Shown here piece by piece: positions 33,351 to 35,197 of a stretch of DNA of 39,675 bases. Numbering within the stretch: position 1 is the stretch's first letter; each line of letters starts with the position of its first letter. Source of the stretch: an uncultured Bacteroidia bacterium (GTDB lineage: Bacteria; Bacteroidota; Bacteroidia; Bacteroidales; UBA932); NCBI GenBank assembly GCA_902778855.1, contig CACYZM010000021.1:1-39675 (forward strand). The letters run 5' to 3'. Under the pieces are notes generated by a model. The model was not told the origin of the DNA, made no database searches, and was given only the letters and a program-made list of their open reading frames with translations. Made by a program: the position numbers and the translations under genes.

Positions 33351-34826
33351 ATGAAAAAATTGTTCACCTTGTTCGCAGCGGCAGCCCTGATGCTCGTTGG
33401 AACAGTCTCCGCTTTTGCAGCGGATAACACCTACAAGGTCTGCAACGGTAAGGTCACCGTGACGGTTACCGACCTTGCTCCGAACGCCGACGGCACGGCC
33501 CTGATCGCCTGCTACAACATCGACGTCGCCCCCGATGCGATCGACGAATGCTCCTCGCTCGTGATCACCCCGCTCGTCCGTGACGAGAACCACAACAAGA
33601 AACTCCTCGAGATGGTCGTCATCAACGGCCCCTCGCACAGAGTGAATATCGAATGGCTGCAGCGCGTATGCTACAGCGTATGCGATCCCAACCGTGTCCG
33701 CTTCTTCACCCAGAAAGAAGGTGAGGCCATGCACATCAAGACCTGCACCGAGGTCCCTTACGAAGCCGATTGGATGGACAACGACGCCGCTTTCTATGTG
33801 ACGACCCAGAAGGCTACCTACAAGCCGAACTGCATCCACAACTATCCCGGTGAAGAGTACATCTGCGACATTCCTTACCTGAAGGAGCCCCTCGTGGTCA
33901 ACCCTGTGCTCGTTCCGGTTCCGGTCGAGGCCGCTCTCGAAAACACCCGCGTCCTCCGCACCAAACTGTTCTACCCGGTCAACGTAACCAAGAAGGTCGA
34001 CAACTACCTTGAGAACGCCGAAGCCCTCGCTCTGCTCCAGACCCTCGATCAGGGCAACTTCGAAGTGACCAGCGTCGCCATCGAAGGCTGGGCCTCCCCG
34101 GAAGCCACGGTTCCTTACAACCAGCGCCTCTCCGACAACCGTGCGAAGACGGTCAAGAACATCATCGCCGAGCAGTATGACTTCCCGCAGGAAGTTTACA
34201 CCACGCAGGGCAACGGTGAGTACTGGGATTCCGTCATCGACTACGTCGCCAACACCAACGAACCCGTGGTGGCTGACAACCGTGAAGCCATCCAGGATGC
34301 CATCGCCGCCAATGGCGACCTCGACAAGCGTGAAGCCGCGATCAAGAAGATCGCCGGTGGCAAGCCGTACAAGGCCATCTTCGACGCTGTCTATCCGCGC
34401 AGCCGTTTCGCCGAAGCCATCGTGACCTTCAAGAACAAGGGTTACAACAAGGATGACTTCATGGCTCTCTACAAACAGGATCCCGCCAGCCTCTCCGCCG
34501 ACGAGTATGTGCTCCTGATCAAAGACGGCGCCCCGAAGGAAGTCGTCAACAGCGCAGTCGAGCTCTATCCGAACGACGCCCGCGTGGCCGCCGTGGCCGC
34601 TGAGCGTTTCTACAACGACGGTGACGTCGACAAGGCCATCGAGCTCTACAAGAAGGCCGGCAACACCGAGGAAGTCTACAACAACCTCGCTTGCTGCTAC
34701 CTCTGCAAGAGCGACTTCGACAACGCCAAGGCCTGCCTCGAAAAGGCTGAGAACCTCAAGGTTGCCGAAACCAACGCCAACGAGCTCCGCAAGGTGTACC
34801 TCAACAACAAGTTCTTCGGCAAATAA
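33351..34826 (+). CDS. Exported protein with OmpA-like domain and C-terminal TPRs (DUF3868-like N-terminus)
   Basis: A 491-residue exported protein with a cleavable signal (LFAAAALMLVGTVSAFAA). Residues about 25-130 form a beta-rich domain like the DUF3868 proteins of Bacteroidales (KVTVTVTDLAPNADG, CSSLVITPLVRDENHNKKL, VVINGPSHR). Residues about 225-320 contain an OmpA-C-like peptidoglycan-binding fold (VAIEGWASPEATVPYNQRLSDNRAKTVKNII). The C-terminal 120 residues form helical repeats (VELYPNDARVAAVAAERFYNDGDVDKAIELYKKAG, NLACCYLCKSDFDNAKACLEKAENL). Related proteins occur with fimbrial loci, but no fimbrillin is here. Codon choice is regular and the gene has its own strong promoter and terminator, consistent with an abundant envelope protein. 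Confidence 0.75.
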   Translation: MKKLFTLFAAAALMLVGTVSAFAADNTYKVCNGKVTVTVTDLAPNADGTALIACYNIDVAPDAIDECSSLVITPLVRDENHNKKLLEMVVINGPSHRVNIEWLQRVCYSVCDPNRVRFFTQKEGEAMHIKTCTEVPYEADWMDNDAAFYVTTQKATYKPNCIHNYPGEEYICDIPYLKEPLVVNPVLVPVPVEAALENTRVLRTKLFYPVNVTKKVDNYLENAEALALLQTLDQGNFEVTSVAIEGWASPEATVPYNQRLSDNRAKTVKNIIAEQYDFPQEVYTTQGNGEYWDSVIDYVANTNEPVVADNREAIQDAIAANGDLDKREAAIKKIAGGKPYKAIFDAVYPRSRFAEAIVTFKNKGYNKDDFMALYKQDPASLSADEYVLLIKDGAPKEVVNSAVELYPNDARVAAVAAERFYNDGDVDKAIELYKKAGNTEEVYNNLACCYLCKSDFDNAKACLEKAENLKVAETNANELRKVYLNNKFFGK

Positions 34827-34850
34827 TCGCTGAAGTCCTGACTCTGAAAG

Positions 34851-34880
34851 GGGAGGGTCACCCGACCCTCCCTCTTTTTT
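34851..34880 (+). terminator. Rho-independent terminator after the OmpA/TPR gene
   Basis: GGGAGGGTC (34851-34859), loop ACCC, GACCCTCCC (34864-34872) forms a perfect 9-bp stem followed by TCTTTTTT. It ends only two bases before the tRNA gene begins at 34883. Confidence 0.85.
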
Positions 34881-34882
34881 CT

Positions 34883-35191
34883 GCCCCGGTGGTGGAATGG
34901 TAGACACGAGGGACTTAGACATCATTTGAGTGCACGTTCCGAAAGGAGCGATGTAGAATGTCGTAAATTCAAGGAAGCCTTAACAGGTCATGCTGATGGT
35001 AATCTTGAGCCAAGCCTCCGGAAGGAGGAAGGTGCAGAGACTAGACACGACACACCTAAAGATTAGAATGATTCAGATCCAAGGTGAAGGAATAGTCCGG
35101 ACCACAAACAACGAATGGTGGCGAAAGCCATAGTGGTAAGAAAATCCCTTGGCCCGAAACGGCCGTGCGGGTTCGAGTCCCGCCCAGGGCA
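34883..35191 (+). tRNA. trnL(UAA): tRNA-Leu(UAA), split by a group I intron
   Basis: Exon 1 is 34883-34916 and exon 2 is 35141-35191; joined they give an 85-nt class II tRNA. The D-arm region is GTGGAATGGTAGACAC. The anticodon stem AGGGA/TCCCT closes the loop CTTAAAA, giving anticodon UAA. A long variable arm (GGCCcgaaacGGCC) and the T-arm GCGGG-TTCGAGT-CCCGC follow, then CCAGGGC and discriminator A (35191). CCA is not encoded. The acceptor stem GCCCCGG / CCAGGGC has one C-A mismatch at the fifth pair. The intron interrupts the anticodon between U34 and A35, exactly where the cyanobacterial and plastid tRNA-Leu(UAA) intron lies. No promoter is seen in the 56 bp between the upstream gene and the tRNA. 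Confidence 0.93.
34917..35140 (+). ncRNA. Self-splicing group I intron in the tRNA-Leu anticodon
   Basis: 224 nt, no open frame for a homing endonuclease. P1: exon ACTT (34913-34916) pairs with internal guide GAGT (34928-34931), with the required U-G at the splice site. P2-like hairpin GTTCC-GAAA-GGAGC (34936-34949). P3: TGTCGT (34959-34964) with ACGACA (35047-35052). P4: TTCAAG (34968-34973) with CTTGAG (35004-35009). P6 extension CCTCC-GGAA-GGAGG. P7, the guanosine site: GACTA (35039-35043) with TAGTC (35093-35097). P8: CACCT (35053-35057) with AGGTG (35082-35086). P9-region hairpins ACCAC/GTGGT and TGGC-GAAA-GCCA. The intron ends in the obligatory G (35140). The segments AATCTTGAGCC and GCAGAGACTA correspond to the conserved Q and R elements. 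The small size and position resemble subgroup IC3. Confidence 0.93.
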
Positions 35192-35197
35192 CTGATA

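Follow-up and report, generated by a model that had tools for sequence, protein, structure and literature searches.

The window (the whole 39,675-nt stretch of DNA that we analysed) carries near its right end a tRNA-Leu(UAA) gene interrupted in the anticodon by a group I intron, as an earlier sequence-only reading had proposed. A covariance-model search of the window against Rfam returned a single family above its gathering score: RF00028, the group I intron model (Intron_gpI), at 34907-35115 of the forward strand (53.9 bits against a gathering score of 50, E 4e-11). With introns allowed, ARAGORN calls tRNA-Leu(taa) at 34883-35192 and places an intron of 224 nt directly behind the first base of the anticodon; with introns disallowed, it finds no tRNA at the locus. 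Its exon and intron bounds bear out the coordinates first proposed for the split gene (34883-35191), the length of the intron and the insertion site between U34 and A35. The last intron base is a G, at 35140; this base and the 5' exon terminus belonged to the patterns that selected most of the relatives described below, and their constancy there is not independent. Folding energy of the intron alone (z -3.1) is weak by itself. The features of the locus are as follows.

33351..34826, forward strand: upstream gene of 491 aa, which marks the locus in relatives with and without the intron (tblastn; TPR/OmpA-like by eye alone)
34883..34916, forward strand: tRNA-Leu(UAA) 5' exon, last base U34 (ARAGORN with introns; similar exon ends in relatives)
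34917..35140, forward strand: group I intron of 224 nt without an endonuclease gene (RF00028; ARAGORN i(35,224); covariation; HNH frame absent)
35141..35191, forward strand: tRNA-Leu(UAA) 3' exon, from A35 to discriminator A73 (sequence; ARAGORN)
34913..34931, forward strand: P1, in which exon bases ACUU (34913-34916) pair with the internal guide GAGU (34928-34931); a U.G pair marks the 5' splice site
34917-34927, forward strand: L1 loop, the position of the HNH gene in relatives
34934..34951, forward strand: P2 hairpin with GAAA loop (covariation)
34959..35052, forward strand: P3, strands 34959-34964 and 35047-35052, enclosing P4, P5, P6 and P6a (covariation)
34969-34973 with 35004-35008, forward strand: P4
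35009-35011 with 35031-35033, forward strand: P6
35015-35018 with 35025-35028, forward strand: P6a
35039..35097, forward strand: P7, strands GACUA (35039-35043) and UAGUC (35093-35097), crossing P3
35053-35057 with 35082-35086, forward strand: P8
35102-35105 with 35133-35136, forward strand: P9
35119-35130, forward strand: P9a hairpin with GAAA loop

Positions 34850-34873 form a strong terminator hairpin for the upstream gene, nine bases short of the tRNA start; no promoter for the tRNA was recognised. Acceptor pair 5-68 of the tRNA (34887 and 35186) is a C-A mismatch, a position that is T.G in 39 of 50 readable loci (a few of them repeated) and A-C in five others, three of which are intronless.

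Small group I introns of subgroup IC3 have a compact core, with GNRA loops on P2 and P9 that dock into P8 and P5. The window intron has GAAA loops on both P2 and P9a. All the elements that had been assigned by eye (P1, P3, P4, P7, P8 and the final G) are there, and P2, P5, P6, P6a, P9 and P9a besides; P7 is presumably the place where guanosine binds. We aligned the window intron with 49 introns at the same site from Bacteroidota, Pseudomonadota and Acidobacteriota, hand-picked among the short introns available. Across these 50 introns the 49-pair core from P1 to P9a is paired in 96.3% of 2,450 cells, and 32 of its 49 pairs show changes on both sides. None of 500 shuffles equalled the real core by any one of five measures. 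Sliding the structure along the alignment lowers pairing to 44% or less, a control that favours the real core, the structure having been written on the window sequence. P3 is the clearest helix, with changes on both sides in all six pairs and 100% of cells paired; P2 shows such changes in all seven of its pairs, with 90% of cells paired. The weak spots are the outermost pairs of P8 and P2, unpaired in 41 and 25 of the 50 introns, respectively. P6 and four of the five P7 pairs are invariant and thus uninformative as to covariation. All 50 introns have the U.G pair at their 5' splice site. In the window copy the core pairs are intact except for one mismatched outer pair in P2. Two lesser readings fall here, a chance structure being rejected by the covariation over 50 introns and a degenerate pseudogene by the intact core.

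The model match and the covarying core support the claim that this is probably a working ribozyme. Introns with such a core are removed by an established two-step reaction, and we infer the same course here: guanosine bound in P7 would attack after U34, and the freed U34 would attack after the last G, joining U34 to A35. An intron that removes itself from the transcript in this way would therefore impose a low cost on its host.

An intact second tRNA-Leu(UAA), together with no expression of this copy, had been named as an observation that would speak against the original proposal. The draft genome (98% complete, 79 contigs) holds one group I match. ARAGORN read all 43 other tRNA matches of the genome and found no tRNA-Leu(UAA) among them; the other tRNA-Leu genes are those for CAA, CAG, GAG and UAG. 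Because there is no UAA gene among those 43, the reading of UUA depends, as far as the draft shows, on the intron-split gene. The sequence-only reading had made both UUA and UUG hostage to splicing, which is right for UUA but not for UUG, a codon with its own tRNA-Leu(CAA). The dependence is real but light, with UUA making up 3 of 9,040 codons in 20 hand-picked ORFs of the window, some of which are possibly not genes.

The assignment of the host to Bacteroidota is supported by introns that trees show to be of the same type, found in Candidatus Cryptobacteroides onthequi and in records titled uncultured Bacteroidales or Bacteroidia. In the family of the window genome, 14 of 199 genomes match RF00028 and 12 of the matches are tRNA-Leu introns; within its genus the figures are 11 of 40 genomes, 10 in tRNA-Leu. 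A phylum-wide sample gave 26 matching genomes out of 296, with the intron of at least 7, the window's included, in tRNA-Leu(UAA). More widely, a pattern scan of named genomes for the intron core plus the Leu(UAA) 3' exon returned at least 120 matches, and the 5' exon was also detected in 107 of the 120 listed. By record title, the matches listed span six phyla: at least 68 are from Pseudomonadota, 33 from Bacteroidota, 11 from Acidobacteriota, 4 from Bacillota and 1 each from Bdellovibrionota and Chloroflexota, with 2 without rank. The pattern left out the usual cyanobacterial P7, which places cyanobacteria outside the sample. The insertion point had been described as a classic of cyanobacteria and plastids. 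The site is the same as that of the cyanobacterial intron, between U34 and A35, but it is not confined to those lineages. The cyanobacterial and plastid introns are indeed widespread, being present in most cyanobacteria and plastids according to one account (PMC4476775).

Some same-type introns contain an HNH endonuclease gene. By length, the 36 such introns comprise eight of 705-733 nt, two of 384 and 451 nt, 25 short ones and one (L042) cut by the contig end. Seven of the eight long introns have an open HNH frame of at least 194 codons in L1, the loop that separates the 5' splice site from the guide; the frame runs on through the ribozyme core to a stop in P6/P6a or P7. In the eighth, L147, the HNH match extends from residue 63 onward. 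Two more of the 36 hold a partial HNH gene, and some shorter introns, such as L135, retain scraps of the gene end. Neither the reading frames of the 224-nt window intron nor its comparison with the HNH proteins revealed an endonuclease gene. Positions 34917..35066 of the forward strand can be read as an HNH C-terminal tail (49 residues, 88% identical to L059), with a TAG stop that ends 74 nt before the end of the intron. We rejected this open frame as proof of a former HNH gene: introns devoid of the gene are also largely open there, via conservation of the core.

By Pfam, the HNH assignment lies near the cut-offs. The L059 protein passes both PF13392 (25.1 against 24.8) and PF01844 (23.6 against 21.4), while of the other three proteins compared L055 passes one and L056 and L086 pass none. 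A search with the HNH protein against solved structures gave no match at E 0.01. Related genes of Bacilli (L105, L132 and L200 [broken frame]) lie in L6 and not in L1, a difference that suggests repeated entry of such enzymes into same-site introns. One Saprospiraceae locus (L129) has an HNH relative 398-685 nt past the intron end of its tRNA-Leu, so the free-standing layout may occur in bacteria too.

Close relatives of the window genome carry filled and empty alleles of this gene at one locus, as is expected of a mobile intron. Within the genus, the uninterrupted gene pattern was found in 16 of 40 genomes, with no overlap with the 10 that bear the intron; 14 genomes gave neither. Among 17 intronless loci, 12 have the 491-aa upstream gene at a similar offset; among 37 loci with this type of intron, 9 do. 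The 37 include two repeated records (L158 and L166), short contigs and other genera, and in 28 of them no such gene shows up. For the genus alone, the upstream gene is so placed in 6 of the 9 intron loci tried. On a tree of this neighbouring gene (21 rows, in which L158 repeats L057), intron presence changes 7 times against a shuffled-label mean of 7.0: intron presence in the genus does not track the tree. The closest comparison is between genome G194, with the intron, and G092, without it. Up to the splice site, 18.9 kb of the two are 98.8% identical, and they agree in the last 36 bases on the 5' side and in the first 50 bases on the 3' side of the insertion; downstream they are 88% identical over 150 bases and then show no similarity in the 9 kb compared. 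This is an allele gained or lost recently, with a breakpoint near the tRNA, and recombination free of any endonuclease could also explain it. The flank after tRNA-Leu (downstream of 35200 in the window; L418-L421) differs between genomes even where the 18.9 kb upstream are kept, and it may be a hot spot of integration or recombination.

In two intron trees the family introns form one clade (starred support values of 100 and 99). A few phage introns are its neighbours, with a support of 88, and the family HNH proteins (97, also starred) group with phage HNH proteins at 93; these supports come from quick trees on short alignments (172-209 columns). The first intron tree omits L086, L105, L130, L132, L144, L151, L176, L182 and L200 (guide unusable or odd length) together with four duplicates, and the second omits 11 rows without the anchor motif and 40 duplicates. 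A third tree, confined to the family (17 rows), includes L054, which is absent from the other two. On this family-only tree the test rejects a single clade for each of two genera, the window's (p 0.028) and one other (p 0.008), and one intron group crosses genera at 99/96. By the AU test, neither a single clade of all Bacteroidota Leu introns (p 0.52) nor a single clade of all phage introns (p 0.20) is rejected, and several origins of either set are accordingly not upheld. The sequence-only reading had posed ancient inheritance against lateral transfer. At the genus level the intron is quickly gained or lost and the per-genus clades are rejected, but a single Bacteroidota clade is not rejected. 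Phages as the source of the Bacteroidales intron are, from these trees, a lead and not a result.

The phage copies themselves are numerous. A scan of viral sequences with the same pattern, allowing any base at the cyanobacterial position, returned at least 120 viral contigs. Among the 120 listed, 87 hold an intron-split tRNA-Leu(taa) according to ARAGORN and 18 a different tRNA with an intron; 15 gave none. The exact P7 motif of the Bacteroidales type occurred in none of the viral contigs, so a recent phage donor was not seen. Comparison with PHROGs of ten proteins from nine viral contigs matched eight to functional families and two to families of unknown function; the functions were rII (three contigs), DNA polymerase, helicase, ligase, endolysin and tRNA nucleotidyltransferase, some of which also occur in cells. 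A few of the viral contigs, whose introns group with those of Betaproteobacteria, may possibly be bacterial. An isolated phage is represented as well: in Agrobacterium phage Atu_ph07 an intron of 278 nt splits an unannotated tRNA-Leu(UAA) gene (L426 1160-1521; about 112.9-113.25 kb of MF403008.1). A 735-kb uncultured phage carries a tRNA-Leu(UAA) with a 205-nt intron. At L213, L240, L241 and similar loci, the phage tRNA with anticodon UAA and an intron has a short variable loop, unlike a normal tRNA-Leu, and its amino-acid identity is uncertain.

HNH relatives accompany many of these introns. They occur in 54 of the 120 viral loci listed (mean length 9 kb), 49 of the 54 within 0.8 kb of the intron end. 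In layout, 26 are antisense and 5 sense within 150 nt past the intron end, 16 are sense within the intron or just upstream, 2 lie within 1 kb and 5 are far. A reverse search starting from the HNH protein found 65 viral loci, 58 with hits of at least 100 residues. Of those 58, 37 lie no more than 200 nt from a tRNA-Leu(UAA) gene (27 split, 10 intact), 7 lie beside other tRNAs (three of them tRNA-Leu with other anticodons) and 14 beside none; after clustering at 90%, 18 of 37 clusters lie by tRNA-Leu(UAA) and 19 do not, counts obtained with queries that themselves came from such introns. One pair of viral loci, L355 and L362, differs by the intron: on the HNH side 535 nt are 92.5% identical, the 443 nt that follow are at 75%, and a 196-nt gap lies at the tRNA where L362 has its intron.

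Among named phages, 206 records have an HNH relative, all below 60% identity. In cyanophage S-CRM01, one of the four opened, the relative follows tRNA-Leu(CAA), and in Atu_ph07 (L425) it abuts tRNA-Leu(UAG), elsewhere than the intron locus. Dulem virus 42 and LR756511 have the relative without a tRNA within 1.5 kb; next to the one in Dulem virus 42, ARAGORN calls a possible tmRNA. For this HNH family, then, tRNA-Leu genes look like the usual neighbours, with UAA the commonest here; the family is not aimed at UAA alone, because two of the four named-phage relatives opened abut tRNA-Leu(CAA) or (UAG). Searched against named phages, the window intron gave partial matches in 63 records, 45 of them Staphylococcus phages and none covering 80%, and the flank of L213 gave no match.

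We consider it likely that the window holds a self-splicing group I intron in one state of a homing cycle at a single anticodon site, with phages as a plausible reservoir and carrier. The HNH enzyme would be expected to cut intronless tRNA-Leu(UAA) genes, and repair of the break would copy the intron into them. In this cycle the window copy would represent a passive stage, unable to home alone because it lacks the endonuclease, and phages with a split tRNA-Leu(UAA) gene and enzyme kin inside the intron or adjoining the tRNA could hold and carry the intron. The pattern of alleles and the enzyme genes point to homing at the anticodon. That a single HNH family repeatedly accompanies a single tRNA, whether in L1, in L6 or free-standing, is the best sign that tRNA-Leu(UAA) is a usual target. 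Because relatives come and go between close bacteria and occur in phage tRNA genes beside a matching enzyme gene, the data suggest a still-mobile element rather than an ancient relic. A bolder version, which we offer only tentatively, would have one endonuclease family aimed at tRNA-Leu, chiefly UAA, link cells and phages: the intron would shield the phage's own tRNA gene, cutting of the intronless gene of a host or a rival phage would drive the intron into chromosomes, and the enzyme gene would later be lost, as in the window.

The homing cycle has to be weighed against spread without an endonuclease, in which the tRNA-Leu locus and its intron are swapped among Bacteroidales by homologous recombination or integrating islands. 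Such passive exchange would suit a locus whose downstream flank differs between genomes while the upstream side is syntenic, and a full-length HNH gene is missing in 27 or 28 of the 36 copies (the count turning on L042). It gives no account, however, of the recurrence of one HNH family with tRNA-Leu(UAA) in three layouts, in cells and phages, or of the HNH gene remnants in shorter introns, and we regard it as rather unlikely. An intron inherited vertically from a Bacteroidota ancestor, or from an earlier one shared with the cyanobacterial introns, and since lost many times, with the HNH genes as later parasites, seems quite improbable. The same site is occupied in six phyla by title, a single Bacteroidota clade is not rejected and the family introns are one clade, all of which speak for inheritance. 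Yet within the genus presence is as scattered as under shuffled labels, single clades are rejected for two genera, among 199 family genomes only 12 hold the intron in tRNA-Leu and among 296 genomes of the phylum at least 7 do (some second matches being unplaced), and repeated precise loss needs a mechanism of its own. Least probable is a dead or mis-assembled copy, either a pseudogene with a degenerate intron or a binning error, a second and intact tRNA-Leu(UAA) being missing from the draft. The genome is indeed a draft in many contigs, and the acceptor stem has its C-A mismatch; against this, all core pairs but the one in outer P2 are intact, the contig is partly syntenic with relatives, the other 43 tRNA matches include no tRNA-Leu(UAA), and a mismatch at pair 5-68 recurs in five other loci, three of them without an intron.

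The homing reading bears on the common view of this site. In textbooks the tRNA-Leu(UAA) intron exemplifies a bacterial intron that is old and inherited; in gut Bacteroidales, the textbook site shows alleles present and absent between close relatives and whole and partial HNH genes, and a large phage pool exists beside them. The cyanobacterial and plastid intron is in the same gene and in the same place, with similar size and helix order. What sets the two apart is that same-type relatives of the window intron carry HNH genes and that alleles vary between close relatives; cyanobacterial tRNA-Leu(UAA) introns are not known to carry a homing endonuclease. Vepritskiy (2002) reportedly described a gammaproteobacterial group I intron in tRNA-Leu(UAA), a single case without an endonuclease. 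That intron reportedly occupies the same site as here in a non-cyanobacterial bacterium. The Azoarcus tRNA-Ile intron, compared by eye, has very similar core motifs and a small IC3 architecture, but it interrupts another tRNA and has no endonuclease. I-Ssp6803I is the PD-(D/E)XK endonuclease of the cyanobacterial tRNA-fMet intron. Like the enzymes here it is encoded by a group I intron of a tRNA gene and expected to cut the anticodon region; it differs in fold and in site, the enzymes here being HNH proteins at Leu(UAA).

Collaborative homing in phages, as set out in PMC10448857, offers a likeness in the free-standing HNH gene beside an intron-bearing gene, to which the allele pair L355/L362 corresponds; it differs in that the target here is a tRNA, and the enzyme family also occurs inside the intron, in bacteria and phages. 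According to a 2014 review (PMC3984707), every phage intron seen until then interrupts a gene for a protein, and evidence that bacterial introns move between species is scarce; both statements are now directly testable with these loci, including that of the isolated phage Atu_ph07. Two other papers describe many introns in crAss-like phages, in core protein genes (PMC7886860), and group I introns in fMet and Ile2 tRNA genes (PMC8450103). Our literature search covered titles and the beginnings of abstracts, largely of non-subscription papers; among these we recognised none that describes a group I intron in tRNA-Leu of Bacteroidota, or one of tRNA-Leu that bears an HNH gene.

Group I introns of Bacteroidota are not limited to tRNA-Leu(UAA). 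Two family matches to RF00028 (L043 and L044) were dropped for want of tRNA exons and for a coding-like sequence by eye, and one genus match (L058) for 23S-type intron motifs by eye and absent tRNA exons. Other sites in the phylum, named from their flanks by eye with a few unplaced, are tRNA-Arg(UCU) (L064, L067-L069, L072, L073, L084), the initiator tRNA (L070, L076, L080, L087-L089), tRNA-Gln (L062, L065) and 23S rRNA. One Bacteroidia tRNA-Leu(UAA) intron with an HNH gene (L086, genome G397; end at 1792, reverse strand) seemingly lies one base earlier, between U33 and U34. Some Bacteroidota genomes carry group I introns in two tRNAs at once.
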